Shown here piece after piece: positions 25,466 through 64,000 of a DNA stretch of 64,000 nt (position 1 is the first letter of the stretch; each line of letters opens with the position of its first letter). Where the stretch lies: positions 23,339 through 87,338 of the forward strand of contig RCMX01000006.1 of assembly GCA_004348925.1 (NCBI GenBank), written 5' to 3'. The notes under the pieces were generated by a model. That model was not told where the DNA came from. It did no database searches and was given only the letters and a program-made list of their open reading frames with translations. This stretch comes from Actinomycetota bacterium (GTDB lineage Bacteria; Actinomycetota; Coriobacteriia; Anaerosomatales; Anaerosomataceae). The position numbers were made by a program, and so were the translations under genes.

Positions 25466-25515
25466 GAGTCTCGCTTCACTGCTTCACGACCGGTCGTCGT
25501 GTGTCGGGGCATGGG

Positions 25516-25612: not shown

Positions 25613-25648
25613 GAATGCATCGTAGCATCTGGGTGGGGTCGCGAACAA
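25601..25648 (-). promoter_or_regulatory. hemA promoter with start-proximal GTTCAGGCAAGC motif
   Basis: Minus strand: TTGTTC (25643-25648), 18 bases, then TGC-TACGAT (extended -10, 25619-25627), six bases, then GTTCAGGCAAGC (25601-25612). The ccm promoter has the same 12-mer at the same six-base distance from its -10. The motif would lie at or just after the transcription start. Confidence 0.5.
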
Positions 25649-25663
25649 CGCGAGCGAGCCATT

Positions 25664-27153: not shown

Positions 27154-27162
27154 TCAGAATCC

Positions 27163-27987: not shown

Positions 27988-28011
27988 CGCGGTGCCTCCT
28001 CGGCGGTCGGA

Positions 28012-28185: not shown

Positions 28186-28187
28186 GG

Positions 28188-28880: not shown

Positions 28881-28902
28881 CGTCTGCTCCTTCCTTGCTG
28901 CG

Positions 28903-30342: not shown

Positions 30343-30348
30343 CGGCGT

Positions 30349-32406: not shown

Positions 32407-32459
32407 ACTGGCTCCGTTCGCTGCGTGCGGCGCCATGCCGCACCGTTGTCAGAGGATTG

Positions 32460-45300: not shown

Positions 45301-45353
45301 AGCGCCACTGCCGCCAGAACGATGCGGCGACGATACCCCGGACCCCAGTCCAT
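42351..45353 (-). CDS. Secreted multiheme c-type cytochrome with an inserted FG-GAP/VCBS propeller
   Basis: Protein of 1000 residues with a signal peptide (basic start, hydrophobic core ending ALAAT). Eight CxxCH motifs lie in the first third (e.g. CAMCH, CYVCH, CDRCH), five more in the last quarter (CVDCH to CASCH), and a final CTNVCH is a CX3CH site, giving 14 potential hemes. Between them is a heme-free region with FG-GAP/VCBS repeats, seen as GDIDGDGTVD and GDLDGDGHIE calcium loops. The ATG at 45353 is preferred to an upstream start because it leads straight into the signal peptide. A role in electron transfer at the cell surface is inferred. Confidence 0.88.
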   Translation of the reverse strand: MDWGPGYRRRIVLAAVALAFACVFFASPAALAATAPHVATSPTTDTCAMCHRAHTAPGSFGRVTPDSWEMTSSALAVAVPSDTGDTQLCYVCHGFEALGSGTDVQSSFNATSAHTLAPVASPYGPSVKQCSSCHDAHGADKVTTDTPFPRLLRSRTSSGSPVFQAEEYCATCHQDRPADTFDGLAVYRQTGHYKQLPDPANGTKVRCSICHVAHGSTIAPLIVSEITSPALTATFTVPANDRRLCFGCHPTSLGTYAGPATYAVSGHGVSSAVSTIAGEWPATNATRLVGECQSCHASMGRDDGTGNAIPKLADASGRELCDRCHDVDGPAATDIKSLGYPASAAADPELVVAVSPDAATAAFGRIALYGTEATSTVPRTVRGPREYRAAAGVGAMATGDIDGDGTVDVIVADPALARVTVLIQDDLKGITSNFGPGVQAIAATAEFVAVADIFDDPSNLPELLALDADAGNLYVYRWDGFGSLAPVDGPIAVGATPTGIATGALTGTAAFADVVITDASVPEYNLLTETAADTLTIVDTAATKTGPRGPSIGDVWPDAGTEIVIANSGDPVDSVSVFAADGTLLGDVSVDAAVGARAWDTLVADVLWDSPIASDELAVAIYGADGLSSVNVFEQTATGLDVPQRYDTGTGFGTGSLAAGDLDGDGHIELVAGDGGWWDRDETKAHGPGVHVYNDVAGTTLTGAFFPGGGVERAGMPPAVAIADLGMVGYSRHPVSAVPAAHDSTETPPYARRHVECVDCHEVHEATSTVSVAPLVYGRLKGVFGSTITNTGSGTSITYGDAQPVTNEYEVCLKCHSAYTDLEGGRDIAAEVNPLNASVHAVEQAGSAVAQNGSFTGGWTNTSTLFCKDCHGTADAAAPVGTHSSAQAPILLKPYLGVSPSDSGMLCYSCHKYSVYYTSVDDTSTTGSYFYNSAGAVPELHGLHVRVHGFGCASCHVSHGSPTEARLIRDDVGFVLPDAPDDGSCTNVCHTGGAKHAYTR

Positions 45354-45371
45354 TACACCATCCCGGATAGT

Positions 45372-45413
45372 CGTGTGCGACGACGCGAATCTGCCGGAAA
45401 CGCGTCGCACAAC
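45372..45413 (-). promoter_or_regulatory. Leader hairpin and -10 upstream of the 14-heme cytochrome
   Basis: CGACGCG (45381-45387) pairs with CGCGTCG (45401-45407) and, across a three-base bulge, TGTG with CACA, forming a stable hairpin in the leader. A TATACT -10 lies just upstream at 45424-45429 on the minus strand. The -35 is weak. Confidence 0.4.
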
Positions 45414-45494: not shown

Positions 45495-48400
45495 CTACTT
45501 GACGAGACTCTCGACCGCTGTCCGCACCGCCGTCGAGACCGCCGACACGCTACCCAGGTAGCGGACTTCTCGGATATCGGCCCTGTGGGCGCGAAGGACA
45601 CCGCCCACCGACGGCGTCAGAACGGCGCCGTTCGTCAGCAGCAGGACCGAGCCATCGAGGCCCTGCAGCACGCCGCCCGCAAGCGCATCCGGGAAGTTCG
45701 TGCCGGTCGCCAACGCAGGCGTACGCCACGTCAGCCCCGCGTCCGAGACGCCGTAGTCGGCGATTGCGATGCCGGTGCCGTAGCGATCGCTGCCCTGGAG
45801 TCGGCTGACGGCGCCGGGAAACGCCGCTCTGAGCTGGTCTTCGACGACTCTCGGCACCGCCGATTCGCTGCCGAGGATGATGACCTTCGATCCTCGCGCC
45901 TTCATCGTGGCGAGCGTGGCGTCCGAGATACCGGTCGGTGCCGTCAGGTAGAGCGGCCAGCCGTTCGCCGCCGAGAGCGGCGATGCCGCGAGCGCGTCGG
46001 GGAAGTTGAGTCCGGTCGCCACGAACATGGTGCCGTCGTAGGCGCCGCTCAACAGATCGGTCGTCCTCACGGCGATCGCATTCGCGGTCGCATAGCGATT
46101 CGGCCCCTGCACCCGCTCCGCCCTCACGCCCGGAATGGCAGCGACCGCATCGAAGACGTTCCTCGAGACAGCCGACTCGCTGCCGAGCACATACGCCTTG
46201 GTAGCACCGAGCCGCACGATCTCGTCCCGTACCGTCGCGGGAAGCGTCTTGGGGTCGGTCAGCAGGATCGGGCCGCCGACGGCGCCCGCGAGAGCCGCGC
46301 CGCCAAGCGCATCCGGCCAGTTCGCGCCGGTCGCGATGACCACCGCGGGCGCACCAGCCGGGAATGCCAGCTGTGACGCGGCGGCGGCCGTCGCGTAGCG
46401 GTTGGAACCCTCCACCGGCACGTACTGCGTGTCGGGGCGCACGATAGTGACGTCCACGGTCTTGGTCGCCTCTCGGTTACCGGCGCCATCTGTGGCCGAG
46501 TAGGTGACCGTGTAGGTCGCCACGCCGCTCAGGGGCACGGCCACGGGCTGCGTGCTGCCGGAACCGGCCGGCGTACCGTTGATCGCCCACTCGATGCGCG
46601 CGACGCCGGAAAGCGCGTCGGTCGCCGAGATGGTGACCGTCGCATCCTCGCCCACCTGTGGAGAGACACTCGCCGTCGACACCGGTTTGGTGCTGTCGAT
46701 CCGGATGGCAAGCGTCTGCTCGGCGGACCAGTTGCCGACCGTGTCGACGGCACGGATCCGGAAGGTGTGGACGCCGTCGGTGAGCGAACTCAGCGACGTG
46801 CTGGTGGCCGTTACCGGTGATGCGGTGGAAAGCGCCGAGTCAAGCGCGAATGCGTAGCCAGCCACGCCGCTCGGGTCGCTCGCGCTCCAGGAGACCGTGG
46901 AGCCGGTGTCCTTGTACCACATCATAGGGTTGACCTGCGGCGATGCGCCCAGTGCCGAGAAGACCGGCGGGTCGACATCGACCGGCGGCGAGGTGATCGT
47001 GAACGTCGCGGTCTGCGTGGCCTCCTTGTTGCCGGCGCTGTCGGTCGACGCATACCGCAGGGTGTGCGCACCGTCGCCCACGATGACGACGTGCGTTCCG
47101 GTCTGAACGGCGCCGTCGTTATCGGTCCACTCGGTCTTCGCCACGCCCGAGAGCGCGTCTGTCGGCGTGAGCGTTACGTCGGCGGTGCCGGTCTCGTAGA
47201 GCGAGACGTGCGAGTCGGTCGTGGACGGCGGCGTGAGGTCCACGCGCACCGTGCGGTGCAGTGGCGTGGCGCTCCAGTTGCCGAGCGAATCGAGCGCGAT
47301 CACGTGGAAGTAGCTCACGCCTTCGGGCACGGTCACGCTGGTGGTGGTCGCGGAGCCGAGGCTGCTCGACGCGGGACGCGTGGTGGGCGACGTGTCGCGG
47401 ACGTAGGAGTACCCGGAGACGCCCGCCGTATCGGTGGCGCTCCACGAGAACGTCGCCGAAGCGCTCTTGTACCAGCTCGCCTCGTCCGGATGCGTTGCCG
47501 AGGTAAGCGACGTCATCGTCGGGCCGGTCGTGTCCGGTATCGGCATGCGCCAGGTGGTGCCATCGGTCGTGACCACGATGGTCCCGAACTTGCCCACGGC
47601 GATGCCCCGTGTGCCGGAGAGCGCTATCGCGGCGAGGTCCTGGCTTGTGGGACTCGTGCCGAGCGACCACGAGGAGCCTCCGTCGGTAGTGCGCAGTAGT
47701 CTGCCGGTAGCGCCAGCGGCCCAACCGGCGGTGCTGCTGGTCATGTCGACACCGTTGATGGAGGAGGAGACCGGCGAGGTGCCCTCAGACCAGGCGGTGC
47801 CGCCGTTCGTAGTGCGGAAGACGCGGCCGACGGAGCTGACGATCACGCCGTTCGTGGTGCTCCCGAACGCAACGCCGGTGAGGCGGAGCGCGACCGGAAA
47901 GGCCTGACGACTCCAGCTGGTGCCGCCGTTGGCAGTCGCGTAGACCGTGGAGGTATCCTCGTTGGGGTACATGTCGTCCCCGACAACCCAGCCCCTGGTG
48001 GAATCGAAGAAGTCCATGCCGAGGAATTCGCCGTCGCCGACAGGGTACGTGTTGCCAAGACCGTCATCGAAGATGTGCAACTCGGGGGCGAGCACCGGTG
48101 AGCCGCCCCAGAAGACGGCGTTGAAGAACTCTGTGCGCCACACCTGCTCGGATATCTGGAGGCCGTCATTCGGCTTCGTGCCACCGTACAAGAGCGCCCC
48201 ATCAGCCGAACCCGGCAGAACCTCGACTCCGCTCAGGCCGATTGGATCCGCCGGATTCTTGTCCTGAGTGATATCCCCGTTCTTCAACGCCCACGTGGCG
48301 CCGCCGTCGCTCGTCCCGACGACCTTGCGGTTGTACGTCACCGCCACGCCGTTGTTCGCGTCCCAGAACGCGATGCCGCGGAAGTCATCCGTCACCGCGA

Positions 48401-48662
48401 GGTCCGCGTCGACGAGCTTGACCCAGTTGTCGCCGCCGTCGGTGGTCTTGATGATCGTGCCGCTGGCACCGGCGGCGTACGCAACCGTGTCGCTCACCAT
48501 CGTCACGCACTTGAGGTCCGCGGTCGTGACCGCAGCGGGGGTGAGCGCCGTAGGCGCGATCGTCGGTGCAGGCTCGGGAGCCGCCACGACAGGCAGCGGC
48601 ATCGCGAAGGCGAGTGCCACCACAAGCATCGCCGCGATGCGGCGTCTCATCATCTTCATCAC
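45495..48662 (-). CDS. Cell-wall-anchored protein: Ycf48/BNR propeller, Ig-like repeats and three CWB2 repeats
   Basis: Secreted protein of 1055 residues. A signal peptide (about 1-28) is followed by a photosynthesis-stability-factor/BNR-like propeller (about 45-380; repeated TTDGGDNW, TSDGGATW, TANGGTSW), three Ig-like OmpL47-type repeats (about 390-725) and three C-terminal cell-wall-binding type 2 repeats (about 740-1055; EGSNRYATA, GPNRYATAN, GSDRYGTG). CWB2 modules bind wall glycopolymers in Gram-positive bacteria, so the propeller is displayed outside the wall. It lies between cytochrome and NHL genes. Ligand unknown. Confidence 0.88.
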   Translation of the reverse strand: MMKMMRRRIAAMLVVALAFAMPLPVVAAPEPAPTIAPTALTPAAVTTADLKCVTMVSDTVAYAAGASGTIIKTTDGGDNWVKLVDADLAVTDDFRGIAFWDANNGVAVTYNRKVVGTSDGGATWALKNGDITQDKNPADPIGLSGVEVLPGSADGALLYGGTKPNDGLQISEQVWRTEFFNAVFWGGSPVLAPELHIFDDGLGNTYPVGDGEFLGMDFFDSTRGWVVGDDMYPNEDTSTVYATANGGTSWSRQAFPVALRLTGVAFGSTTNGVIVSSVGRVFRTTNGGTAWSEGTSPVSSSINGVDMTSSTAGWAAGATGRLLRTTDGGSSWSLGTSPTSQDLAAIALSGTRGIAVGKFGTIVVTTDGTTWRMPIPDTTGPTMTSLTSATHPDEASWYKSASATFSWSATDTAGVSGYSYVRDTSPTTRPASSSLGSATTTSVTVPEGVSYFHVIALDSLGNWSATPLHRTVRVDLTPPSTTDSHVSLYETGTADVTLTPTDALSGVAKTEWTDNDGAVQTGTHVVIVGDGAHTLRYASTDSAGNKEATQTATFTITSPPVDVDPPVFSALGASPQVNPMMWYKDTGSTVSWSASDPSGVAGYAFALDSALSTASPVTATSTSLSSLTDGVHTFRIRAVDTVGNWSAEQTLAIRIDSTKPVSTASVSPQVGEDATVTISATDALSGVARIEWAINGTPAGSGSTQPVAVPLSGVATYTVTYSATDGAGNREATKTVDVTIVRPDTQYVPVEGSNRYATAAAASQLAFPAGAPAVVIATGANWPDALGGAALAGAVGGPILLTDPKTLPATVRDEIVRLGATKAYVLGSESAVSRNVFDAVAAIPGVRAERVQGPNRYATANAIAVRTTDLLSGAYDGTMFVATGLNFPDALAASPLSAANGWPLYLTAPTGISDATLATMKARGSKVIILGSESAVPRVVEDQLRAAFPGAVSRLQGSDRYGTGIAIADYGVSDAGLTWRTPALATGTNFPDALAGGVLQGLDGSVLLLTNGAVLTPSVGGVLRAHRADIREVRYLGSVSAVSTAVRTAVESLVK

Positions 48663-49961: not shown

Positions 49962-50786
49962 CTATCCGGCAAGCGCGGCAGCGACCTTCATGGCCGCGTC
50001 CTTAAGGTCCGCAGCTTTACCGGTCTTGGCGTGCAGCTCCACCGAGACCACGACCGGACCGTCGATGAAGATCACGACCGCGAATGAGTCGCGAATGCCG
50101 AAGTAGCCGGACTTCGTGCCGACCTTGACCGCGGCGCCAGACGTGGGATACGACTGCTTGAGCGTGTCGAGCGTCGCCTGCGCGCCCTTGGCATCCACGG
50201 TCTGCTCGGCGAAGATCACGAGCTGATCGGCGTTGCCGGATGTGGGGATGTAGTTGCGCGTGATCGACGCGGGATCCGCGATGATCCCCTGCGCCGAGTA
50301 ACCGGCGATCGTGTCGGGCACGTACTTCACCAGGTTCGAGACTGCGTCGGTCGGCTCATCGGGCGTGGGCGTGGTGGTGCTGCCGGTGCTTCCGCCGGTG
50401 GTATCCGGTGTGGGCTTCTTGCCGCCGTTGATCTCGTTGAGCTGCGACGAAGCGTTCTTGTAGCCCGGATTGAGCGCGAGCACCGCCTTGAGCTTGTCGG
50501 CCGCGGTCTTGAGATCGCCTGCCGCGAGGGCCTTCTGCGCCTCATCGTAGAGGCTGCCGACGTTCTGGTGATCGGGGCACGTGATGATGCGGGTCGTCAC
50601 CGAGTACTTGGCGACGTCCTTCTCGGGCACCTTCATGTCGGTCGTCTTGTCCTCGACGACCTCCCCGGCGGTGCAAAGCACGATCTCGCCGGTCTTCACG
50701 GTGACGGTGCGCTGCTTGCAGCCGGCGGTGCCCAGCAGGGATGTGACAAGGATGACGGCGAGGAACGCCGATGCGAGTCGCTTCAC
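49962..50786 (-). CDS. Secreted or lipoprotein-like protein of unknown function
   Basis: Protein of 274 residues with a signal sequence ending SLLGTAGCKQ. The cysteine could be lipidated, although Thr at -3 is a weak lipobox. After a short domain holding two further cysteines comes a TPR-like helical pair (YDEAQKALAAGDLKTAADKL, near 85-120), a Thr/Pro linker (about 128-145), and a C-terminal domain of about 120 residues with no recognised family. GTG 50786 is the start. It abuts the NHL gene, suggesting a joint role. Confidence 0.65.
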   Translation of the reverse strand: MKRLASAFLAVILVTSLLGTAGCKQRTVTVKTGEIVLCTAGEVVEDKTTDMKVPEKDVAKYSVTTRIITCPDHQNVGSLYDEAQKALAAGDLKTAADKLKAVLALNPGYKNASSQLNEINGGKKPTPDTTGGSTGSTTTPTPDEPTDAVSNLVKYVPDTIAGYSAQGIIADPASITRNYIPTSGNADQLVIFAEQTVDAKGAQATLDTLKQSYPTSGAAVKVGTKSGYFGIRDSFAVVIFIDGPVVVSVELHAKTGKAADLKDAAMKVAAALAG

Positions 50787-50792: not shown

Positions 50793-52265
50793 TCACCTCT
50801 CGATGTGGGACGTGGTGCCGTTTCCCGGCGCCGAACGACATACCAACAGTAACGCGAGCGCGACGACGACGCCACCGAGCGCCACAAGCGTGACGGGGAT
50901 CGGGAGCGGTCGGAACGCGATCGCGGCGAATTCGCTGCCAAAGTCGACCTGCACCTCCGAGGGGATGAAGGTCGTGAACGTACGAAGCGGCGTGTTCCAC
51001 ACGAACGGCCATGCGAACGCGGCCGCGAGAAGCGCCAGGATGTGCGTCAGCCTCAGCTGGCGCGACAACGCGATTCCGAGCACCGCTACCGCGAGAGCAA
51101 GGACCGCCCACGGGCCGACGACTTCGACGCCGCGAAGGACGAACGACGCTTCAAACGCGGCTCCGCTGGTGCGCAGCCCCTTCGCGGTGCCTTCAAGCGC
51201 AGGAAACGCGAGCCCTGCAGCCGCGACGACCGAAGCGAGCGCCCCGACGGCAAGCGCCGCGCGGCACCACCTGGACTGCGGTGATGTCTCCGGCGAGGGT
51301 TCTCTCGGCCAGATGAGCAGCGCGGCGGCAAGCGCGATGATCGCCCCCGCTGATGCAGGGCCGAGCAGGATCGGCTGCGGACCGAATGCACCCGTCGCCT
51401 GTTCGACGAGCGTGAGCGCGGTAAGCGCGACCGCCGGCAGCACCATCGCTGCGGCTACGGCGCGCGGACCGACCGAGCGTAGCGCGAGCAACGCGGCAGC
51501 GGTGGCAGCCGTGCACGCGACGGCATAGAGCCAGAACCCGCCGTGCTCGAGTGCAGCCGGGACGTCCGCGGTTCCCCATCGCGCGACGAGCGTCATCGCG
51601 GCCGCAAGCACACCGCCGACCGCAGCCGGAACCGCTGCAGCGTCAAGATCGCCTCTGTCGCGTGCCCGACCGAGATGCCACCACAGCACGGCCCATGCGA
51701 CGCCGGCCCCGAGCATCCAGAGTTCCTCGGGCACGAAGCGTACGAACGGCGAGAAGGAGCTTGGACGCTCCCAGTTGCCGACGACACCCACGATGCCGGC
51801 CAGACCGAGCAACGCGCCAGCAATCGGAACGACCTCCAATCGGCGCCGGCCGAGCGTGAAGAGCACGAGGATTGCGGCCCACGCGGCGGTCGTGAGGAAG
51901 AGGATCTCACTGCCCGCCGGTGCATCGGAGTAGCGGTGCACGAGGACTGCGTACGGCGCGCCGAAGAGTCCCAGCGCACCGAGAACGAGCGAGAAGAGCG
52001 GCTCTGAGGCGGCGCGAAGCCGAATGCGGCGGACGTCACCGCTCACGAGCAGGATGCCGATCGCTGAGGCGATGGCGGATGCCGAGGCGAGCGCCTCGGC
52101 AGAGAGCGTACGACGAGCTTCGATGCCGACCGCGAAGCCGCCTGCCGAGGCGAGCGCCAGGACGGCCGCGGCAATCGCCGCCGCCGTCCTGACCCGCCGC
52201 GAAGAGGAAGGGCCGGGGATGTCCCGACCCTTCCCTTCGCGTTTGACGTTGATCTTCGACGTCAT
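50793..52265 (-). CDS. Polytopic membrane protein, EamA/DMT-like, unknown function
   Basis: Protein of 490 residues with about 14 hydrophobic helices. The first half resembles drug/metabolite transporters (VLGALGLFGAPYAVLVHRY, FLTTAAWAAILVLFTLGRRR, GLAGIVGVV), and the second half is a further set of helices without clear family marks. It follows the hexaheme cytochrome gene by eight bases, so it probably belongs to the formate dehydrogenase operon. A transporter or a membrane quinone/cytochrome partner are both possible; there are no heme or quinone motifs to decide. The ATG at 52265 has a weak ribosome site. Confidence 0.6.
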   Translation of the reverse strand: MTSKINVKREGKGRDIPGPSSSRRVRTAAAIAAAVLALASAGGFAVGIEARRTLSAEALASASAIASAIGILLVSGDVRRIRLRAASEPLFSLVLGALGLFGAPYAVLVHRYSDAPAGSEILFLTTAAWAAILVLFTLGRRRLEVVPIAGALLGLAGIVGVVGNWERPSSFSPFVRFVPEELWMLGAGVAWAVLWWHLGRARDRGDLDAAAVPAAVGGVLAAAMTLVARWGTADVPAALEHGGFWLYAVACTAATAAALLALRSVGPRAVAAAMVLPAVALTALTLVEQATGAFGPQPILLGPASAGAIIALAAALLIWPREPSPETSPQSRWCRAALAVGALASVVAAAGLAFPALEGTAKGLRTSGAAFEASFVLRGVEVVGPWAVLALAVAVLGIALSRQLRLTHILALLAAAFAWPFVWNTPLRTFTTFIPSEVQVDFGSEFAAIAFRPLPIPVTLVALGGVVVALALLLVCRSAPGNGTTSHIER

Positions 52266-52273
52266 CGGCTCAC

Positions 52274-53425
52274 TTACTTGTTGTGGCACGCCTCGCACAC
52301 GCCGCGGTTGTTGGACCGAAGCAGTGCGTTGCCATCGTCCGGCGGAACGCTTCCGGTACCCGAATCGGGCAGCGGATCGGTCGAGTCGGCGACGTTGGCG
52401 TAGCCGGTCATGACCGCGGAGGAACCGTGGGCCACGTGGCACGTCAGGCAGTCGATCCAGTCGCTGGCGTCCTGCGTCGTAGCGTCCGCAGCCGAATGAG
52501 CAAGCGGCAGCACGTTGTCCGTCACGATCAGCGAACGGGCGCCCAGGTAGTTGCTGAGCGGAACGTTGACCGGGTGACGGTGACGGGTCACAAGGCCGAA
52601 GCCGTCGTTGGCGTCATACACGCTGAAGTTGCCAATGGCACCGGTGTTGTACTGCGTGTGGCAGGAAGCACACCAACCGCTGATACCCTTGGTGACATCG
52701 CCAGCAGGGGCCTTCGCGTACTTGGGATCGGTGTAGTCCGGCGAGTAGCCTGCAACCTGAAGGGCACCGGGCTCGTGAAGCAGCCAGCCGCTCGTCGGGT
52801 AGCCTGCCTCGGTCGAGATGACCCACGGAGTCGGGGTCGGATCGACCGGGTCGATCGTGCCGTCATAACCACCAACGGTCACGCCGTTCACAACGTCCTT
52901 GAGCAGGCGGTAGTTCGACGAACCGTGCACGTCGTGGCACACGGAGCAGCCGATCGTGACCTGCGTACCACCGGTGCTGATGATGCCATCGCGACCGGTG
53001 GCGCCGCCGCCGTAGGCGACCCAAGTGGTGTTGTTGGGATAGTGCTGCGTCGGGAACATCGCCGGGTCGAAGCCACCGCCGTTGAGCGGCTCGCCGAAGG
53101 CGTTGAGAGCGTTGCTGCCCTCGTAGACACCGTCGAACACGTTGGTGTCAGCGCCAAGCATCGCCGTGCCGTGGCACGTGTAGCAGAAGTCATCGATGCT
53201 CGTCGACGTGCCGAGCAGCAGGGCGCTGCCGGTCGTCAGGTCCGTCTTGGTCCACGTGATGCTGCTGGCTGCCGTGTGCGCGCGGTGACAACCGGCGCAG
53301 GCATCCGTGCTCATCGTGTAGCTGCCGTGAACGGAGTAGTTCGCGAATGCGACACCCGGGGTCAGTATGACCGCTGCGGCCACCGCGACCAGCGCGATGA
53401 GAAGAAGACGCTTCCTCACAGCCAT
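52274..53425 (-). CDS. Secreted hexaheme c-type cytochrome of the formate dehydrogenase operon
   Basis: Protein of 383 residues with a signal peptide (KRLLLIALVAVAAAVIL...VAFA) and six CxxCH motifs (CAGCH, CYTCH, CSVCH, CASCH, CLTCH, CEACH), spread widely as in doubled-CxxCH proteins. The first ends up close to the mature N terminus and the last is five residues from the C terminus. Its ATG overlaps the stop of the Fe-S subunit gene (TAATG). It takes the position of the cytochrome b subunit in FDH-N operons, so it is the likely electron acceptor. No membrane anchor is seen in the mature protein. Confidence 0.9.
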   Translation of the reverse strand: MAVRKRLLLIALVAVAAAVILTPGVAFANYSVHGSYTMSTDACAGCHRAHTAASSITWTKTDLTTGSALLLGTSTSIDDFCYTCHGTAMLGADTNVFDGVYEGSNALNAFGEPLNGGGFDPAMFPTQHYPNNTTWVAYGGGATGRDGIISTGGTQVTIGCSVCHDVHGSSNYRLLKDVVNGVTVGGYDGTIDPVDPTPTPWVISTEAGYPTSGWLLHEPGALQVAGYSPDYTDPKYAKAPAGDVTKGISGWCASCHTQYNTGAIGNFSVYDANDGFGLVTRHRHPVNVPLSNYLGARSLIVTDNVLPLAHSAADATTQDASDWIDCLTCHVAHGSSAVMTGYANVADSTDPLPDSGTGSVPPDDGNALLRSNNRGVCEACHNK

Positions 53426-54279
53426 TACACCTCCCCAACTTCATCGGCGATACGCTGACGACGTGCGATGACGGCTACAAGACCGCCTGCCAGCAGTGTA
53501 GGCACAAGCGCTGCCTTTGCGAAAGGTCCGGAGACCAGGCTCGACATGAGCGGAGACACGTGGTCTTCCACGAACGGGTCGGCCTTCGGAGCGATCAGCA
53601 GGAACTTGCGGCTTGCCCAGTACATCGAACCGTCACCCTGGGCCGAGATGAACCCGTTGGAGGCGGAGTTGATGTAGGCGAGGATGTTGGTCTTGGTATC
53701 CCAGTTCATCGCCTTCGCGGGGCAGGTGTACACGCATGAAGGCTGATGCGCCTTCTCGGGCACCGCGGTGACCTCAGCAGTCGTTGCCTTGGTCGGGAGC
53801 GGTGTGCCGTACGATGCGATGAGGCTTTCGCCGATACCGGCGCGACCGTAGCACAGCGTGCACTTCCAGGCCTTGGGCTCGTCGTCAGCATACAGATCGC
53901 TGCCGGCGCCGACCTTCGGATAGCCACCGCGACCGCAGTCGACCTGGCACTGATACGTGCAGACTACGCCGTTGGCGTTGGTGCCGCCGGGCGTGCACTT
54001 CGCAGGATCGATTGCGACTGCGCCGTTCGGCATCTTGTTGATGGCCGCAAACGGGCACCGCTTGGTGCACGGCGGGTTGGTGCAATGCCAGCAGGTGTAC
54101 CGCATGAACGGACCCATGTCGACACGCTTCTGGGACTTGATGATCACCCGCTGATCGGGAGCGGTCTTGTGGATACCCGGGTTCAGCGCCTTCATCTTCC
54201 ACGTACGCTTGCAGCTAACGACACAGCCGTTGCAGCGCATGCACTTATCGACGTCTTGAAGAATCGCCATAGTACTCAT
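53425..54279 (-). CDS. Formate dehydrogenase iron-sulfur subunit (FdnH/NrfC-like)
   Basis: Protein of 284 residues with four ferredoxin-type cluster regions: CMRCNGCVVSCKRTW near the N terminus, CWHCTNPPCTKRCP, a modified CTYQCQVDCGRGGYP, and CTLCYG with CVYTCP. A C-terminal hydrophobic helix (about 255-274) should anchor it, as in FdnH. It has no signal peptide, so it would be carried out with the Tat-exported catalytic subunit. The ATG at 54279 has GGGGG nine bases upstream; a GTG one codon earlier is possible. It lies between the catalytic subunit and the hexaheme cytochrome genes. Confidence 0.9.
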   Translation of the reverse strand: MSTMAILQDVDKCMRCNGCVVSCKRTWKMKALNPGIHKTAPDQRVIIKSQKRVDMGPFMRYTCWHCTNPPCTKRCPFAAINKMPNGAVAIDPAKCTPGGTNANGVVCTYQCQVDCGRGGYPKVGAGSDLYADDEPKAWKCTLCYGRAGIGESLIASYGTPLPTKATTAEVTAVPEKAHQPSCVYTCPAKAMNWDTKTNILAYINSASNGFISAQGDGSMYWASRKFLLIAPKADPFVEDHVSPLMSSLVSGPFAKAALVPTLLAGGLVAVIARRQRIADEVGEV

Positions 54280-54296
54280 CACTCACCACCCCCTTT

Positions 54297-57200
54297 CTAC
54301 GGTGTGACCTTGTCGATTTTGCACAGGCAGGCTTTGTACTCAGGAATCGTGGTGTTCGCATCCCAAGCATCGATGCACAGGTCGTTGGCGCGAGCGCCTA
54401 CGCCGAGACCACGATCGCCCCAGTGCCACGGGATCGCGACGGTACCGGGAGCGACACGCTGATTCGCGAGCGTTCCGACACCCACGCGAGCCTTGAAGCC
54501 CTTGTTCCATGCGCCGGCCGCGAGCGGCCCCGACATGATCGTGCGGTTGTTCTGATCCGTGATGCTGTCGCCACGGGCGGTCGTGATGTTGACGTAGTCG
54601 CCATCCTTGATGCCCTTCGCAAGCGCGTCGACCGAGTTGATCTCGACCCACGGCTCCGGCTCGAGCTCGACGTTCCACGGGTTGTTACGGGTGATCGGGC
54701 CACCCTGGAAGTGCTCGACGCAACGAATCGAGGTGAGCACCAGCGGGAAGTTGGCAGCCGTGCCTCTCGCACTATCGGCGAAGATGAGGCTGCCAGTAAC
54801 CCCGTTCTTGGTGTTGCGACCCCAGGTCGCCACGTAGTTGGGCTTGGTACCGGTACCGTCATACGGCGTCTCGTAGGGCTCTGTGAAGGCCGGGAAGCGC
54901 CCGGGGTGGACGTGGTTCCCGCCAACGCCGGTTCCGGCGTCAGGCATGTCGGAGAGCTGGTTGTACGTACGGTACAGCCACGACCAGTCGGCGAGCGTGT
55001 TGGCGCCAGCGATCGTCCACAGACGTGCAAGGTAGCCAGGAGCCACGAAGACGTCCGCGACATCGCCGGAAAGCTCGCCGTTGTTGTAGAAGATGCGGCG
55101 GTTGAGCAGCCATGCCCAGCCGTAGCGCGGGTACTGCAGGTGCGCACCAGAGTACTTAGCATCGCCCTTGCGGGACTTGGCCTTGTTGGCGATACCCCAC
55201 GTGATGGCCGTTGCCGTCAGCGCACCGCTTGCATCGCGCTCGACCGCCGGCGGCGTGTGATTCTGGATGTACTCGGGGTTGTACGCGCCACCCTGGTTGT
55301 TGTTGTTGCCGGTGGAGTAGATCCACATGGTGCCCTTGTGACCACCAACGAACCCAGCGGCCGCTGCGGGGAACTCCTGGCCTGCAACAGCAGATCCAGC
55401 GGTGCTGTAACCGGCGACCGGAGCACACATCTCCTTGAAGACCTGCTCGGCAACATACTCGCTGCCGACGAGGGTGTTGCCCTCGTAGTCGACGCCGGAG
55501 ACGGCCTCGAAGTCGCCCGTACCGTCCCAACCGTACTTGCCCCAGAGGACGTCGTACGCATCCAGGCCGGCAAGTGCGGTCCCAGCCCACTGAGCGGTGA
55601 TATGGCTGAATGCGCCGCCATCGTTCAGGGCCTTCGCGAAACGATGCAGCAATTCGAGGTCGGACTTGCTGTTGCCCTTGGGAGCACGTGCACGATCGCG
55701 CCACTGGATCCAGCGACCGGAGCTTGTGACCGAACCGGCTTCCTCCACGTGAGAGCATGCGGGGAGCAAGTAGGTCACGCCGTCGGCCTTGCGCTTGCAC
55801 TGTGCGGTCTCGTTGGCGAACATGTCCGTGCACACGAGCAGGTCGAGTGATTCGAGACCCGTGCGTACCGCGCTCTGGTTCGGCTCGGTGACCGCCGGGT
55901 TCTGACCCCAGACCACTGCGGCCCGGATGTTGGGAACCAAGTTGGCGGTCGCCCATGCCGGGTCCATACGACGGAACGACTCGATGTGCGGTACGCCGTT
56001 GCCCTTCGGCCAGCAGTCATACATCTTGTCGAACTCGGCTGACGTGGCAACGGTGCCGCCCAGTGCACGGCTACCGAACCATTCGCGCGTCATGTTGAAG
56101 AAGCCGCGCTGCTGCCAGGCGATGTCCGCCTCGTTGTATGCGCTCTTCGTCGTGGTGCCGAGAACGCGGTTGCCGAACAGCTTGTTGGAGTAGTCGGCAT
56201 ACGTCTGACCGACTGCAGGGTTGCCCGAATACGCAGGGATCAGATCGTACAGGGTGCCCATGTCCGTCGAACCCTGGACGTTATGGATACCACGGAGGGC
56301 GTTGATACCGCCGCCCGCACGACCCATATTGCCCATGAGGGTCTGGATGACAGCATACGACCGAACGTTCTGCGAACCGCTCGTGTACTGCGTGGCGCCC
56401 ATGGCGTACATGATGCACGTCGCACGGTAGCCAGGAGCGGTGAGCGCCTGCGTAGCTGCACCGAAGTCAGAGCTGGAGCACCGGCTGTTGGCGATGAACG
56501 CGTCACGCACCGCCGCGATATCGGCGACCGTGCATCCGCAGATCTCAGAGACCGTCGTAGCGTCGTACTTTGCCACGTGCGTCTTGAGCTTCTGGAAGAC
56601 GCAGTCCGGATCCTCTACGTCGGCCGCGAAGACCGGCATGTTGCTCCAACGATACGCCGTGGTGCCGGTGTTGCTCGTGGTCTTGAGCATGGCGCGCTGA
56701 TAGTCGCCCGTACCCGTATCGACCTTGATGCGAGAGTCGCAGTACTTCGGCCAGCCGGTGGTGATCGGCGCTGCCGACCAGGAAGTGCCACCATCGAACG
56801 AGTACATCGCGCCTGCGAGCTCGGTGCCGCTCAGGGTGATCTGCGTGCCAGCATCATCGATGAACGCGCGGCCGGTGGATGAAGAGTTCGCCGCAGTGCT
56901 GTTGTGCCACGCGAAGAAGTTGATCGACGCGGGCGCCGTCGGATTCGCGTACATCCACGTGATGATGGAGTTCAACACGCCGTTGATGAAGGCGATGTTG
57001 GTTCCGGGGCGGATGCGAACGTAGCGGTCGTGCTTGCGCATGTCGTTCACGTTCGTGGAGTCGTAGCCGCTGTTGATCATGCGGGCGGTACGCGTCTGCC
57101 GCGGGTCGACGACGACGAGCGTGGCATTCCTGCCGCGGCCATTGACGTCGAAACGAGCGGTGTTCACGTGCCCGATCGATGCGGGGTGGTTCTCAGCGGG

Positions 57201-57965
57201 GTTCGCTCCGCAGACGAAGAACATGGTGGAGTTGTCGAGATCCACCCAGTTGTTCGTCATGGCGCCTCGTCCAAATGTGCGGCCAAGACCGGCCACTGTG
57301 GACGAGTGTCATATACGAGCCTGGTGCTCGACCAGGCTGGTGCCGAACTCGGCGATGAGCTTGCGGTAGACGTAGTTCGGCTCGTTGTTCATGTGCGATG
57401 AGCCGAAGAACATGACCGTCTTGGCGTTCGAAGCTGCGGTGGAACCGGGAGTGACAGCGCCAAGCGAGTCGCGAATGGCCTTGAGGCCGGCATGCTTGTT
57501 CGTGGTAGCGGCGTCGCCCTGGACGATCTCGGTCAGAGCATCGTCAAGCGCAATCTCGGTCCACGCCTCGTTGCCAACGCGCTTCCATGCCGTGCCCGTG
57601 AAGTCGAATCCGTCGACGGCCGCGGTATGCTCCGGCACACCGAGACGGCGAACGTTCGTGACCAGCTGATACGAACCGGCACCCTTGGAGCACAGGCCGC
57701 CACGGCTGGTCGGGTTGTTCCAGTCACCATAGACGTCGAGAACGTTTCCGCTCGCGTCCACGTCGACCTTCTGGCCACACTGCGCTGAGCAGTACGGACA
57801 GGTGGTCGTATACGTTGCGGCGACGTCAGCAGCAACCGCGCGAGACGCGGTGAATACCATGTCGGCACCGGTAGCCCCGACAACGGCCGCTGCAGCGCCC
57901 GCCTTCAGGAAGTCTCGCCGTGAAAGCTCGAACTTCCCTTCTGTGTCCTTGTCTTGTATAGCCAT
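54297..57965 (-). CDS. fdnG: Formate dehydrogenase catalytic subunit, selenocysteine-containing (FdnG-like)
   Basis: Mo/W-bis-MGD enzyme of 1222 residues read through an in-frame TGA at 57309-57311 (residue 219). A Tat signal SRRDFLKAG (R16, R17) directs export. Cysteines 56, 59, 63 and 92 bind a [4Fe-4S] cluster. The TGA sits in HQARI-Sec-HSSTVAGL, followed by TFGRGAMTNNWVDL, matching Sec-His of FdnG; downstream are VVVDPRQTRTA and the C-terminal IPWHWGDRG...TIPEYKA block. A hairpin follows the TGA at SECIS distance. Without readthrough it would look like two genes. It is about 200 residues longer than E. coli FdnG. First gene of the operon. Confidence 0.93.
57279..57311 (-). promoter_or_regulatory. 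Bacterial SECIS-like element with UGA selenocysteine codon
   Basis: After the TGA, 12 bases lead to GTGGCC, loop GGTCTT, GGCCGC (57279-57296). The six-pair stem has one G-U. The loop contains GGUCU, and it starts 18 bases after the TGA, as recalled for the SelB-binding hairpin of E. coli fdhF. Confidence 0.8.
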
Positions 57966-58081
57966 ACCTTTCCCTCTCTGTTTCGTGAATCCTTGGTGAT
58001 CCACGATGGTCCGAAGAGACCTCCGGTCCAAACCGACCTGCCTAGCGACACCTCCTTCATGCTCAGGGCCGTCTCGGGGGG

Positions 58082-58131
58082 AAAAAGAAAAACCGGTCTA
58101 CCCACGCGTCAGAACTGCGTGTGTAACCGGT
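58082..58131 (-). terminator. Intrinsic terminator in the formate dehydrogenase leader
   Basis: On the minus strand ACCGGT ... CACGC, loop, GCGTG ... ACCGGT is followed by TTTTTCTTTTT. It ends about 117 bases before the fdnG start, so it can act as an attenuator or as the end of a separate small RNA. Confidence 0.75.
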
Positions 58132-58363
58132 CCTATCAGGCTCTCGCCTCCCTTACCCCAGAGATGACACGCCTCAGGCCCCTTTTGCCGGGGGACCCGT
58201 CGGCGTTGTCTCCTTTCCAAGGGGGGAGGCGTCACCGTTTCCAGTGGCACCCTATCGGCTCAAAGACCGTGGCGTACGGCCACGCTGTAGGTCGGAGAGC
58301 TCGGAGACTAACTGCCTATTCTGTTGCCCTGGGGAAATCTGCCGGGATTCCCGATTCCAGGGA
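58082..58363 (-). ncRNA. Structured leader RNA or small RNA upstream of fdnG, class unknown
   Basis: The 487-base gap 57966-58452 has no convincing gene. Between a palindrome at 58364-58381 and the terminator, the minus strand can fold into several helices: TGACGCCTC (58226-58234) with GAGGC-GT-GTCA (58165-58175), enclosing CCTT-GGA-AAGG and GGTCCCC/GGGGCC hairpins, plus GTGGC/GCCAC near 58270-58285. The sequence GAGCC(T)GATAGG occurs twice (near 58250 and 58135). Terminator plus folded upstream domain is the layout of a riboswitch. A molybdenum-cofactor sensor would suit the gene, but I cannot match it to a known class by eye. Confidence 0.5.
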
Positions 58364-58452: not shown

Positions 58453-59967
58453 TCACGCCGATCCGCCGCCGAATGTGTCGAGGAACGTCTTGCGGTCGAA
58501 CACCTCGACGCCCATGGCCCGCGCCGAGCGAGCGAGTCCCTCATCTTCAGTGGCGAGCCTACCCACGCGCTGTGACATCGTGAGCAGAATCGCCGAGGCC
58601 CGGTCGACGCCGCCCTTCTCGATGAGCTCCACGACATCGGACTCGGAGTGAGGCTCCGGCTTGAGCAGATCGCCCAGCGCCACGCCATCGAGCATGCGGC
58701 CCTCGTACTCCGAGAACCCTTCGGCAGGGACGACCCACTTGAAGCGCTTGTCGTTCATGAAGTCCATCTTCTCAGCAAGCGCCATGCCGTCGATGAAGTC
58801 GCTCGTCACGACGATCGAGCGCTTCCGGCGCAGGAACGGCAGGAGAAGCAACAGGAGCGGCGACAGGCAGATCGTCCACTGCATGGGCGTCTTGGGGAGC
58901 TCGGCCGATGGAAGAATGCCGACGGTCGGCCAGCCCCAGACCTGGACCTGATGGTTCTCCCGGTCCGACACGAAGATCCGGCCGCGCTTGTCGAGCGCGA
59001 CGTCACTCGGATACTGGAACTGCCCGAGGCCGACGCCGTTGCCACCGAAGCCCGTGATACGCTTCCCCTTGAGGTCGTAGATGTCGACCGTGTGAGCGAA
59101 CGCGTCCACCACATAGAGACGCTGCTGGTCATCGATGATCATGCCCCGAGGCGTTCCGGACGTGGGGATGAAGTACTTGTATTCGCCTTCGGGCGAGAAG
59201 ACCTGCACCCGGCGGTTGTTGCTGTCCGAGACGAACACGTCGCCATTCTTGGCGATGGCGATACCATTCGGGTAGTAGAAGCCGCCGGGCGACTCCTCCA
59301 TCCGCTTCGTCTGCACGGTCTTGCCCCACCGCAACAGCTCCGTTCCGTTCTGGTCGAACTTGAGGATGCGGTGCTCCTTGTTGATGCCGACGTCGGCCAC
59401 GTACACGTCACCCTCGGCATCGAAAGCGACCGCGATGGGCGCCCAATTCGCCGGGGCGTCGCCCTCGGGCTCGAACTTGCGCAGGAAGGTGCCGTTGCGA
59501 TCGAAGATGAAGATGCCACGGAGCATGCGGTCGGTGACCCAGACCTGGCCCTTGGCATCCACTGCAACGCGACCCGGCTGGGCGAGCGACGTCGCGTCAC
59601 CGCTGGCGATCGCGCCGAACGAGAAGTTGTACGAGCCGTCGACGTCGTAGCACCGAACCAGCTCGTTCTTGTTGTCGACGACGTATACGAGGTCGGAACG
59701 GGTGACCGCTACTCCGATCGGCTGCGTGAGCGCGTTGGGACCCTCGGGCCCGGCAATCGAGTACAGGTACTCCGGGGGCGTGATGGTCTCGCGGCCGCTG
59801 CCGATGAACGGGACGACGATCCTACCATTCTGCAGGTAGTTGAACGTCGACCACACAAGCAGGAGCAGCAAGAGGACAAGCAGCACGATCGCCACGATCT
59901 TCTTGATGCGCCCACGGCGCTCACGCTCGGCGAGGAAGTTCGAGAGTTTGCGGTTTGATTCGGTCAC
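58453..59967 (-). CDS. NHL-repeat membrane protein with a PIN-like C-terminal domain
   Basis: Protein of 504 residues: basic N terminus, transmembrane helix (IVAIVLLVLLLLLLVWSTF, about 24-42), NHL propeller (about 70-345; YYPNGIAIAKNGDVFVSDSN, YPSDVALDKRGRIFVSDREN), second helix (WTICLSPLLLLLLPFL, about 363-378), and a C-terminal domain of about 120 residues. That domain starts SIVVTSDFIDGMAL and ends RLATEDEGLARSARAMGVEV, the strand pattern of PIN-like folds. With two helices, the propeller would be outside and the PIN-like part inside. The start is GTG 59967. Paralogous to 48755-49954. Confidence 0.75.
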   Translation of the reverse strand: MTESNRKLSNFLAERERRGRIKKIVAIVLLVLLLLLLVWSTFNYLQNGRIVVPFIGSGRETITPPEYLYSIAGPEGPNALTQPIGVAVTRSDLVYVVDNKNELVRCYDVDGSYNFSFGAIASGDATSLAQPGRVAVDAKGQVWVTDRMLRGIFIFDRNGTFLRKFEPEGDAPANWAPIAVAFDAEGDVYVADVGINKEHRILKFDQNGTELLRWGKTVQTKRMEESPGGFYYPNGIAIAKNGDVFVSDSNNRRVQVFSPEGEYKYFIPTSGTPRGMIIDDQQRLYVVDAFAHTVDIYDLKGKRITGFGGNGVGLGQFQYPSDVALDKRGRIFVSDRENHQVQVWGWPTVGILPSAELPKTPMQWTICLSPLLLLLLPFLRRKRSIVVTSDFIDGMALAEKMDFMNDKRFKWVVPAEGFSEYEGRMLDGVALGDLLKPEPHSESDVVELIEKGGVDRASAILLTMSQRVGRLATEDEGLARSARAMGVEVFDRKTFLDTFGGGSA

Positions 59968-61022: not shown

Positions 61023-62633
61023 TCAGAGATTGAGGTCTGTGTGACAGCGCCGGCAGAGTTCCGAACCCGGCCATGGCGCGATACGTTGGTTACGGATGTC
61101 GAGTGCACCGTGGCAATCGTAACAGCCACGCATATCGTGAGGGCCGGTCAGCGGGTTGTCGACCCGGACGCCGGTGGAGCCGAAGCCAATGTGGCAGTCA
61201 TCGCACACGTACGGCTTGTCCTTCTTGTACTGGGCCTTCGTCGCCACGTTGAAGTGGACAGCGTGCTCGGCCAGGCCTGCGACCTTGATCTTCGTGGGCT
61301 CGGCCGTCTTCATCTCGGGATGGCACTTCACACAGTTCGCTGCGATCAGCTCCGTTGAGCGCACTGACGCATGATGGCAGTCCTGGCACGCTTCTCGGTC
61401 CTTGTGGCACACCCTGCAGTCCGCACCCTGGAGCCCGCGTCCACGCTGCGCGTGGACTTCAAGCCAGTCGGTGGGGTGCGGCATCGTGGTCAGATGGCAC
61501 TGCTGGCACGACGGCGAGTCGTGGCAGATCGCGCAATCCCCTTTCTGGGCGAGATAGAGGCCGCCGTGCTCCGAGGCCCACTGCGGCTTCCGGTGATCAG
61601 CGGGAATGACCTTCAGTCCCGTCTTACCATCGGCAAGCTTCGTGCCACCGTTGTGGCACTTCACGCAAGACTTCGACTTATGGCACATGGCGCAGTAGGA
61701 AACGCCGATCTTGGCCTGATCCTTGTGATCGCCGCTCAGGAACTTCACGGTGTGCGTGGCGGGTTCTAGTTTGAAGCCCTTGGGGTGGCACGCCTCGCAC
61801 TTGTCAGTGGCCACCGCTCCGCTGCTTGCGTGCTGCAGACCATGGCAACGGTAGCAGGCCTGCATCGTGTTCTTATCCGTGCCAAGGGGCTGGTGGGCGA
61901 ACCGCGGGTGACACACGGTGCACTGATAGTCGCGCTTCAGGTGATCCTGATGGGCGAAGATGATGCGCCCCTGCTTGAAGCCGTCGACATCGGGATGGCA
62001 GAAGTTGCACTGTCCGATAGTCGTCGGGCTGTCAGGGTCGATGAGCTTCGGTGGCTCCTTGGCCTTGATCGGGATCGTGCGGAGATAGATCGTGGGCATC
62101 GCGCCGAGATCCGGTACTTCCTTCGCGTGACAGGTGTCGCAATCCTTCACCGAATCATGACAGAGCAGGCAGCCGTTCACGCCAAGCTGCCTGGCCTTGA
62201 CCGCGTGCGGCTTCGCCTTCCAATCCTTCACGTGTGTCACGGGGCGAAGCGTGAACGACTTCGGGTGACAGTCGGTGCACACGTTGCTGGCGATCTTTCC
62301 CGTGGGCCCGTGCTCGAGACCGTGGCAGGTGAAGCACGATGCCATCGTCGGCACGGCCGTCTTGCCGTTCTCGTGGGGGTTCACGAAATGGCACGCCGAG
62401 CAGTCAGTCGTGAGGTGAGCCGCGTGATTGAAGATGACCGAGGCGTTCCGGGACGCGCCGATGACCGGATGACACGGGGTGCAGTTCCGGGCAGCGACAG
62501 CGGCCGTCAGGTCGATGGGCGGTGAGTCGACGACGCTTCGCGCCTGGAGGGCCGGGACAGCAAGGAACGCGGCGGTCGATATCACGGCGACCGCCGCGAG
62601 CACTATGCCCCTTGCTGCGCGAGAACGTGCCAT
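61023..62633 (-). CDS. Secreted 20-heme c-type cytochrome
   Basis: Protein of 536 residues with a signal peptide or N-terminal anchor (GIVLAAVAVISTAAFLAVPAL) and 20 CxxCH motifs, about one per 26 residues, from CTPCH near residue 50 to CRRCH six residues from the end. Many non-axial histidines (NHAAH, HQDHL) could serve as distal ligands. The dense, wire-like heme content fits long-range electron transfer across the envelope. The ATG at 62633 lies four bases after the stop of the upstream 13-heme gene; a TTG at 62654 would overlap that gene. Repeats such as CYRCHGLQH and CFTCHGLEH suggest internal duplication. Confidence 0.92.
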   Translation of the reverse strand: MARSRAARGIVLAAVAVISTAAFLAVPALQARSVVDSPPIDLTAAVAARNCTPCHPVIGASRNASVIFNHAAHLTTDCSACHFVNPHENGKTAVPTMASCFTCHGLEHGPTGKIASNVCTDCHPKSFTLRPVTHVKDWKAKPHAVKARQLGVNGCLLCHDSVKDCDTCHAKEVPDLGAMPTIYLRTIPIKAKEPPKLIDPDSPTTIGQCNFCHPDVDGFKQGRIIFAHQDHLKRDYQCTVCHPRFAHQPLGTDKNTMQACYRCHGLQHASSGAVATDKCEACHPKGFKLEPATHTVKFLSGDHKDQAKIGVSYCAMCHKSKSCVKCHNGGTKLADGKTGLKVIPADHRKPQWASEHGGLYLAQKGDCAICHDSPSCQQCHLTTMPHPTDWLEVHAQRGRGLQGADCRVCHKDREACQDCHHASVRSTELIAANCVKCHPEMKTAEPTKIKVAGLAEHAVHFNVATKAQYKKDKPYVCDDCHIGFGSTGVRVDNPLTGPHDMRGCYDCHGALDIRNQRIAPWPGSELCRRCHTDLNL

Positions 62634-62637
62634 CAGG

Positions 62638-63897
62638 CTACGAACCGCCTCCAAAGATCGCGCCGATAAGCTTCAAGATCGGGTTCTTCTGGCGAACCTC
62701 TGTCTTCCCGTGGATCATGCCGGCCGCGCTCTTCGTGAAGTCTTCCGTCGCGGTGCCATGCTGGTCGTGACACGCGCCTGCGCCACAGGTGGCCGCAAGA
62801 TTCGCCGGGTTCACTGCGGACGCCTTGTCTGCTTTCGGCTGTATCGCGTGATAGTCGTGACACTGCCAACACGCCGGGGCGTCCTCGGCACCTGCCTTGT
62901 ACGGCGCGCCGTGATAGTAGTCGCCATAGTTGTCATAGTAGTCCTTGTGGCACTTGCCACACATCTCGTACGACGCCGCATGCACCGTCATGCTCGCTTC
63001 TTTGGTGTCGGTGAGCGGAATCGTATGGCCGCCGTGGCAGGAGCCGCAGGTCGCCGAGGCGAGATTGCCCTTCGCGATCTGCTCGGCATGAACTGACTTC
63101 TCGTACGCGGCCTTCGCCGAGTCATGGTCGTGGCAATCCGCGCAGGCCATGCCCGCGTTGATGCTCCAGACCTTCGTCTTGGGCGCGGGTGCCGTTGAGC
63201 CGTAGGTGAAGTCGACGTGGCACTGCACGCACGTGATGTCGCGATGAGCCGAAGTCTCGACTCCAAGCACCTGATACGACTTGATGACGCCGTTTGAGAG
63301 CTTCGTCAGGTTCGGGTTGCCATGACACGCCTGGCAGCCATTGCCCACGTTGTAGGCGAACGGCTCCTTCGGGACCCAGCTCACGCCTTCTTTGAGGTGG
63401 CAGGTATCGCAATCTTTGAGCGAGTGGCACATGGCACACTCGGTGTTCTGACTCGCGATCGACGGCGCCACGTGGGGCTTATTCTTCCAGTCGTCGACAT
63501 GCGACGCCGGACGCAGCTTGATCGGTCCTGCTTTGTGGCAGTCTACGCACACTGCCGTCGCCATGACGCCCTGCGACCCATGGTTGAGCCCGTGACAATT
63601 GAAGCACTGCTTCATCGGCACTCGCTTGATGAGCGCGCCGGGGCCGTGCGGTGATTCGGTGTGACAGGAACTGCATGCGGTGGTGATGTGCGCGCCATGG
63701 GTGAAGTTGATATTGAGGTTCTTCACCTGCGCGTAGTTCGCATGGCAGTACGTGCAGTTCTCTTTGTAGACTTCGCCGCCCAGCTGAATCGTGGTCACAG
63801 CCGATGAGGCTGCCGGCGCGATCGCGACGACGGCCAGCACGACCAGAATCAGCAGAGCTCGCGAGACATGCTTGCCGGAGCGTGCCTCTCTTCTCAC
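62638..63897 (-). CDS. Secreted multiheme c-type cytochrome, 12 CxxCH plus one CX4CH
   Basis: Protein of 419 residues with a signal peptide (LLILVVLAVVAIAPAASSAV), twelve CxxCH motifs (CTYCH to CWQCH) and a CGAGACH near residue 375, which is a CX4CH site. The N-terminal part (CFNCHGLNH, CVDCH, CDTCH) parallels the 20-heme protein encoded next, so the two are probably paralogous partners. The C terminus is basic and hydrophobic (ILKLIGAIFGG). GTG 63897 is the start, with AAGGGGA upstream. Part of the operon that continues beyond the window. Confidence 0.92.
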   Translation of the reverse strand: MRREARSGKHVSRALLILVVLAVVAIAPAASSAVTTIQLGGEVYKENCTYCHANYAQVKNLNINFTHGAHITTACSSCHTESPHGPGALIKRVPMKQCFNCHGLNHGSQGVMATAVCVDCHKAGPIKLRPASHVDDWKNKPHVAPSIASQNTECAMCHSLKDCDTCHLKEGVSWVPKEPFAYNVGNGCQACHGNPNLTKLSNGVIKSYQVLGVETSAHRDITCVQCHVDFTYGSTAPAPKTKVWSINAGMACADCHDHDSAKAAYEKSVHAEQIAKGNLASATCGSCHGGHTIPLTDTKEASMTVHAASYEMCGKCHKDYYDNYGDYYHGAPYKAGAEDAPACWQCHDYHAIQPKADKASAVNPANLAATCGAGACHDQHGTATEDFTKSAAGMIHGKTEVRQKNPILKLIGAIFGGGS

Positions 63898-63954: not shown

Positions 63955-64000
63955 CTACTTGCCGAAGATCTTGCCGATACCGTCGAAGATGCGAGTAAAG
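63955..64000 (-). CDS. C-terminal end of a further upstream gene
   Basis: Only 14 codons and a TAG are visible, reading FTRIFDGIGKIFGK. The ending resembles the ILKLIGAIFGG tail of the neighbouring 13-heme cytochrome, so another cytochrome of the same operon is likely. The call rests on this short match. Confidence 0.4.
   Translation of the reverse strand, partial: FTRIFDGIGKIFGK

Follow-up and report, generated by a model that had tools for sequence, protein, structure and literature searches.

Among bacterial selenoproteins the alpha subunit of formate dehydrogenase is the commonest, with 822 organisms (PMC5029168), and several described systems are close to the locus analysed here. The periplasmic Sec/W enzyme FdhAB of Desulfovibrio (PDB 1h0h, 6sdr), among the best solved relatives of our alpha subunit, has the same HQARI-Sec-HS site and an Fe-S beta subunit, and E. 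coli FdnGHI (PDB 1kqf) resembles our locus in its selenocysteine codon, the position of the hairpin, a Tat-type alpha subunit and a four-cluster beta subunit with a C-terminal transmembrane helix. The order Anaerosomatales also has FdnG-type paralogues (L082, L083, L086 and L098, and L084 and L085 with Cys) which belong to the same protein family and most of which have TGA; a Moco riboswitch lies near three of them. Two published members of the same order, Parvivirga hydrogeniphila (MCL4079376-90; PMC9686372) and EMTCatB1 (1c0408-0406; PMC7943316), carry formate dehydrogenase genes among multiheme cytochromes as well. Formate, together with Fe(III) or sulfur compounds, supports the growth of cultured Anaerosomatales, in which no quinones were detected, and the formate dehydrogenase MCL4079382-3, inside the multiheme cluster MCL4079376-90, was assigned to CO2 reduction for autotrophy (PMC9686372). 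On a working biocathode the top 10% of EMTCatB1 transcripts included those of a formate dehydrogenase (1c0408, 1c0407) and of 1c0406, the multiheme cytochrome next to it, and 1c0407 was higher in closed circuit (PMC7943316). Selenocysteine is mentioned in neither of these open-access papers on the relatives.

In this work we have analysed a stretch of 64,000 nucleotides (the window) from a genome of 2.25 Mb, rated 99% complete, whose named relatives are Coriobacteriia of the order Anaerosomatales (OPB41), mostly known from metagenomes (Table 1). Compared with Desulfovibrio FdhAB, the alpha subunit of the window has about 200 additional aa, including extra segments near 336-450 and 780-945, and is encoded in a cluster with a cytochrome b and with 6-, 12-, 20- and 6-heme cytochromes. 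Unlike E. coli FdnGHI, it has no gamma gene directly downstream and falls into a separate clade, and the PF01292 cytochrome b stands at the opposite, upstream extreme of the cluster, past the multiheme, TPR and NHL genes. The FdnG-type paralogues of the order are 37-40% identical to it, shorter (about 1050-1100 aa), members of another clade and in two cases now Cys proteins; a homologue search found none in the genome of the window. Our overall reading, in which we have high confidence, is that the locus would encode a selenocysteine-containing, Mo/W-pterin formate dehydrogenase that is made by SECIS-directed read-through, exported by the Tat system, connected to cytochromes as electron partners and transcribed in dependence on the molybdenum cofactor.

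Table 1. Features of the formate dehydrogenase locus, in window coordinates
Feature	Position	Strand	Remarks
Lipoprotein, function not assigned	49962..50786	-	conserved in cluster
Polytopic membrane protein, about 12-13 TM, no known family	50793..52442	-	conserved in cluster, no invariant His; true start probably near 52298
Hexaheme c-type cytochrome, signal peptide	52274..53425	-	6 CXXCH; cytochrome Pfam matches
Formate dehydrogenase beta subunit	53425..54282	-	16 Cys, enough for four [4Fe-4S]; TM helix at the C terminus
Formate dehydrogenase alpha subunit, 1222 aa with Sec219	54297..57965	-	Tat signal, one [4Fe-4S] motif, Mo/W-bisPGD domains
SECIS-type hairpin	57266..57306	-	8-bp lower stem, 6-bp upper stem, GGUCUU loop
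In-frame TGA, selenocysteine codon (codon/residue 219)	57309..57311	-	aligned to Sec of solved formate dehydrogenases; TGA kept in all clade members sampled
Terminator-like hairpin then U-run, candidate riboswitch expression platform	58082..58132	-	by folding; ends in TTTTTCTTTTT
Moco (molybdenum/tungsten cofactor) riboswitch aptamer RF01055	58194..58318	-	67.8 bits, gathering score 36
Membrane-bound NHL beta-propeller protein	58453..59967	-	NHL repeats E 1.5e-35; conserved
TPR protein, N-terminal TM helix	59999..61129	-	Pfam; conserved
20-heme c-type cytochrome	61023..62654	-	20 CXXCH; 20 motifs in relatives too
12-heme c-type cytochrome	62638..63897	-	12 CXXCH; cytochrome c3/c7 Pfam matches
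6-heme cytochrome gene, 3' end	63955..64000	-	remainder beyond window (locus L105)

The interrupted alpha gene

The alpha gene starts on the minus strand with an ATG at 57965, preceded by GAGAGGGAAAGGT, and ends with a stop codon at 54297-54299; the sole break in its frame of 1222 codons is the TGA. Without read-through the gene appears as two ORFs of 240 aa (57309-58031) and 999 aa (54297-57296). An earlier note on this DNA, made from the letters alone, had described exactly this, two apparent genes in the same frame split solely by TGA, and had recognized a Sec-His site in the flanks of the codon, HQARI-U-HSSTVAGL. The alignment to solved formate dehydrogenases agrees with that assignment, since EHQARI-U-HSSTVAGL of the alpha subunit pairs with EHQARI-X-HSATVAAL and the TGA falls on their selenocysteine, so that UGA stands where homologues have either Sec (the solved enzymes) or Cys (L084 and L085). 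The note had also warned that standard annotation would lose the Tat signal and the cluster motif. This is indeed the case: the motifs SRRDFLK and CPYCSAQC both lie upstream of the TGA and a start at 57296 would drop them.

The alpha subunit matches the Pfam families TAT_signal (26.3 bits, cut-off 22.7), Molybdop_Fe4S4, Molybdopterin and Molydop_binding, and the Tat signal is conserved in homologues. It matches NCBIfam formate-DH-alph with E 5e-127, under the cut-off of that model, and its best solved relatives are the Desulfovibrio formate dehydrogenases and E. coli FdnG (PDB matches down to E 6e-88). The family named at the outset was thus the right one, with the refinement that the protein belongs to a clade separate from FdnG. 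Its score against the FdnG equivalog NCBIfam TIGR01553 is 425.2 bits, against a curated cut-off of 814.2, and in a maximum-likelihood tree the clade of the order (100/100) is distinct both from E. coli FdnG and from FdnG-type paralogues within the same order; judged by score and tree, therefore, the alpha subunit is not an FdnG orthologue. With weaker support (81/99), the clade of the window also takes in actinobacterial loci that lie outside the class (L088-L092, L095). Eight positions are invariant in 23 sequences, namely C10, C13, C17, C46, K48, C173 (the Sec), H174 and R512 when numbered from residue 47, and the protein thus combines the [4Fe-4S] motif and the Mo-bisPGD domains with the Sec-His pair, the Arg and the Lys of metal-dependent formate dehydrogenases. 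By homology with these enzymes, the conserved residues Sec219, His220, Arg558 and Lys94 would form the site for formate and CO2.

Could a selenocysteine enzyme of this kind have a main substrate other than formate and, as a terminal oxidoreductase, act for example on Fe(III) or sulfur compounds? A multiheme cluster with a molybdopterin oxidoreductase has been tied to Fe(III) reduction (PMC9686372), the large part of the alpha subunit is only 28% identical to FdnG, and its score is under the cut-off of the formate dehydrogenase model. However, the best solved relatives are formate dehydrogenases, the Sec-His pair and the formate dehydrogenase Arg and Lys are invariant in the 23 sequences, and formate is a growth substrate of both members of the order in culture (PMC9686372); we regard another main substrate as improbable. 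At the level of sequence there is a strong case that the alpha subunit is a selenocysteine-containing, Tat-exported formate dehydrogenase.

We also noticed that a homologous domain of about 290 aa, for which we found no Pfam match, occurs at two different sites of the alpha subunit in different relatives: before the Sec loop in L056, L066 and L074, and after about residue 568 in L070.

The hairpin downstream of the TGA

The RNA that follows the TGA reads, from 57306 to 57266, CUCGUCCA ca GUGGCC GGUCUU GGCCGC acauu UGGACGAG, and the GGUC of its loop begins 18 nt downstream of the TGA. A hairpin with a GGUCU loop at this distance had been proposed in the earlier note, and folding, a recoding test and covariation all sustain it. 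When the region was recoded synonymously with local codon usage, 27 of 5000 sequences were as stable as the real hairpin and 2 of 5000 were as stable and also had a GGU apical loop; the hairpin is thus more than chance. Rfam SECIS_3 matches it with 32.8 bits (E 4e-6, below the gathering score). A SECIS-type hairpin with a GGU(C) apical loop does stand directly downstream of the UGA. An alignment of 15 sequences that share a register has 94.5% of its cells paired, and three pairs have changed on both sides (G-C to U-A, U-A to A-U and G-C to U-A). The covariation score is 0.173; shuffles gave 0.064, with none of 500 reaching 0.173, and slid controls gave no more than 0.042. The GGCCGC arm stands beside the loop in both large subgroups, yet it is shifted by one base, so that one subgroup encodes GR there and the other AA; in this comparison it is the RNA that is kept where the protein differs.

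The upper hairpin has a stability of -8 to -12.5 kcal/mol in the Sec loci of this phylum, and of -6.0 kcal/mol in E. coli fdnG. The Cys paralogues provide a natural control, in which the hairpin is weakened or lost. In L084 and L085, where the codon is TGC, GGUUU replaces GGUCU and the upper hairpin is weaker (-7.0 kcal/mol), whereas their Sec sister L086 has kept the GGUCU hairpin (-10.5 kcal/mol); in the more distant Cys proteins L087 and L097 the values are -5.3 and -2.3 kcal/mol. L084 and L085 are of the FdnG type and, with Cys for Sec and a degraded SECIS region, are nested beside this Sec sister. A scan of the genome with a home-made SECIS model gave no second convincing site; the next match (E 0.04) was gapped and 33 nt long, in a model which is specific for formate dehydrogenases, would miss the element of selD and has only rough E-values.

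Selenocysteine machinery and relatives

The genome was expected by the earlier note to have a selenocysteine system, and when we looked for selA, selB, selC and selD, all four were present. The scores are 612 bits for selA, 378 bits for selB and 372 bits for selD, and all three cluster with a tRNA-Sec (anticodon UCA) in about 11 kb of contig 6; selD itself has an in-frame TGA. The presence of in-frame TGA in two genes, the alpha gene and selD, is what a genome-wide code change, with UGA read as Trp, Gly or Cys, would also give. Yet TGA is the ordinary stop of 13 of the 30 genes in the window, and the genome has the complete machinery for Sec. We rejected the reassignment on this use of TGA as a stop, and give it practically no credence. 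Our reading that UGA is decoded as selenocysteine follows from four lines of evidence: the downstream RNA, the evolution of the hairpin, the control offered by the Cys paralogues, and the Sec machinery.

A TGA in one genome may always be a sequencing error, or a nonsense mutation in a decayed former Cys or Sec gene. Here, however, the TGA and the conserved downstream RNA recur in about 40 assemblies of the clade, and the frame is intact and conserved on either side of the codon; relatives with the same TGA refute this explanation, which we consider hardly credible. Some match to the alpha subunit was found in 52 of the 61 genomes searched. The loci of the same clade that were examined, about 40 if some duplicates between two collections are included, all have TGA and none has Cys, and the site is HQAR[IL]-UGA-HS in the order, with close variants outside it. 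selA was over its cut-off in 48 of the 61 genomes. In two genomes rated 96-98% complete, G013 and G017 (loci L081 and L080), we found the TGA gene and a TGA-containing selD and no selA, none following selD either; an assembly gap or a missing contig is a likely cause. Relatives known as metagenome-assembled genomes may carry binning errors, as in the 'Aeromicrobium' bin L068, which the tree placed among Coriobacteriia.

The surrounding cluster and its leader

The genes stand in a fixed order: cytochrome b (PF01292), 6-heme, 12-heme and 20-heme cytochromes, TPR protein, NHL protein, the Moco RNA, formate dehydrogenase alpha and beta, a second 6-heme cytochrome, the membrane protein and the lipoprotein. 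The four multiheme cytochromes have 44 CXXCH motifs in total (6+12+20+6). The cytochrome b gene lies outside the window (locus L105), upstream of the 6-heme gene at the window edge, and the upstream end of the cluster with this gene is present in the genome of the window and in all five of the other loci long enough to include it. A module without cytochrome b had first been suspected because there is no FdnI beside the beta gene and the 549-aa transmembrane protein lacks an invariant His; the PF01292 gene at the upstream end of these loci led us to reject it. The core of the cluster recurs outside the class, there with the hexaheme gene before the alpha gene, and this gene adjoins the formate dehydrogenase both inside and outside the class. 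For the hexaheme and 20-heme proteins no solved relative was found by sequence, a kinase match with E 0.0015 being taken as chance.

Several neighbouring features may be recorded here. The C-terminal part of the NHL protein, past its second transmembrane helix, looks PIN-like by eye. A surface protein of 1055 aa, in which cell-wall-binding (CWB2) and Ig domains are combined with a YCF48-like propeller, is encoded at 45495-48662, beside a 13-CXXCH FG-GAP multiheme protein at 42351-45410, and genes for haem synthesis (with a methylase-HemD fusion) and for cytochrome c maturation (CcmE/CcmF) lie at 20236-33140, near the multiheme cluster.

The Moco riboswitch RF01055, which scores over its gathering threshold upstream of a Mo/W gene, stands directly upstream of the alpha gene in the window, and it was also present in all 20 loci of the order that were scanned. 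Between the riboswitch and the alpha gene there is a long hairpin that looks like the terminator platform of such a switch. A consensus terminator scanner, limited to loops of 3-8, does not list it. Folding of 11 loci gave a hairpin ahead of a U-run in 9, with a different sequence in L051 and L056. In L066 we observed tandem Sec formate dehydrogenase genes (2904-7373 and 10056-12308), each with a Moco riboswitch of its own. The selenocysteine reading put forward in the earlier note stands, and the riboswitch and the cytochrome cluster add a setting that the note did not have.

The contig L054 of EMTCatB1 (1.84 Mb) has the same cluster in the same order, and a search of G006, a genome of 1.8 Mb in one contig with its locus at the same place, gave a single match; it is therefore very likely, from gene content and position, that 1c0408-0406 are the genes of the L054 cluster. 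MCL4079382-3 may be either the two halves of an alpha gene split at UGA or an alpha and a beta gene.

Possible role of the enzyme

How might such an enzyme work? SelB would bring Sec-tRNA(Sec) to UGA codon 219 by means of the hairpin directly downstream, and the ribosome would then read through. The motif and the likeness to FdnGH suggest that the Tat signal exports the folded alpha subunit together with the iron-sulfur beta subunit. The selenocysteine at the metal would take part in the conversion between formate and CO2 outside the membrane. From the gene order we infer an electron flow between the formate dehydrogenase and the cytochromes: electrons would leave by the Fe-S clusters of the beta subunit, reach the co-encoded cytochrome b and multiheme c cytochromes, and then cross the cell envelope to an acceptor outside; the opposite route would bring them from a donor to CO2. 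The chain of multiheme cytochromes probably passes electrons of the formate dehydrogenase out of, or into, the cell. The strong expression of 1c0408-0406 on the biocathode (PMC7943316) lends this some support from elsewhere. The Moco riboswitch and the terminator would make transcription of the formate dehydrogenase part depend on the supply of the cofactor.

It may be asked whether the enzyme is mainly a CO2 reductase that feeds a cytoplasmic reductive glycine pathway, as was assigned for the formate dehydrogenase of the order (PMC9686372). With the conserved Tat signal, however, the active site of the alpha subunit should face outside, and formate would then have to be imported for the reductive glycine pathway. 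The signal thus argues against CO2 reduction for autotrophy as the direct role of the enzyme, and we think that role unlikely. An exported formate dehydrogenase linked to cytochromes is the reading that we retain. Tentatively, we raise a wider possibility, that these enzymes form a distinct actinobacterial class of Sec formate dehydrogenases, in which electrons are exchanged across the envelope with a dedicated chain of cytochrome b and the 44 c-hemes, formate is turned into CO2 or back at the cell surface with minerals or electrodes as partners, and RNA gates the making of the enzyme twice, through the Moco riboswitch and through the SECIS element.

The read-through of UGA is in itself expected biology, one more member of the commonest family of bacterial selenoproteins. 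What is less usual, as far as these genomes reveal, is the fixed cluster with a Moco riboswitch and multiheme cytochromes across a little-known order. Ordinary gene calling removes the Tat signal and the cluster motif, and so it can hide the export of the formate enzyme of this subsurface order and its cluster with a long multiheme chain. This bears on the published view that the enzyme reduces CO2 for the reductive glycine pathway (PMC9686372), a pathway to which an exported enzyme would make no direct contribution, and on that of electron uptake at the biocathode, where such genes were among the most expressed (PMC7943316). We would also predict that such cultures need a supply of selenium besides molybdenum or tungsten.
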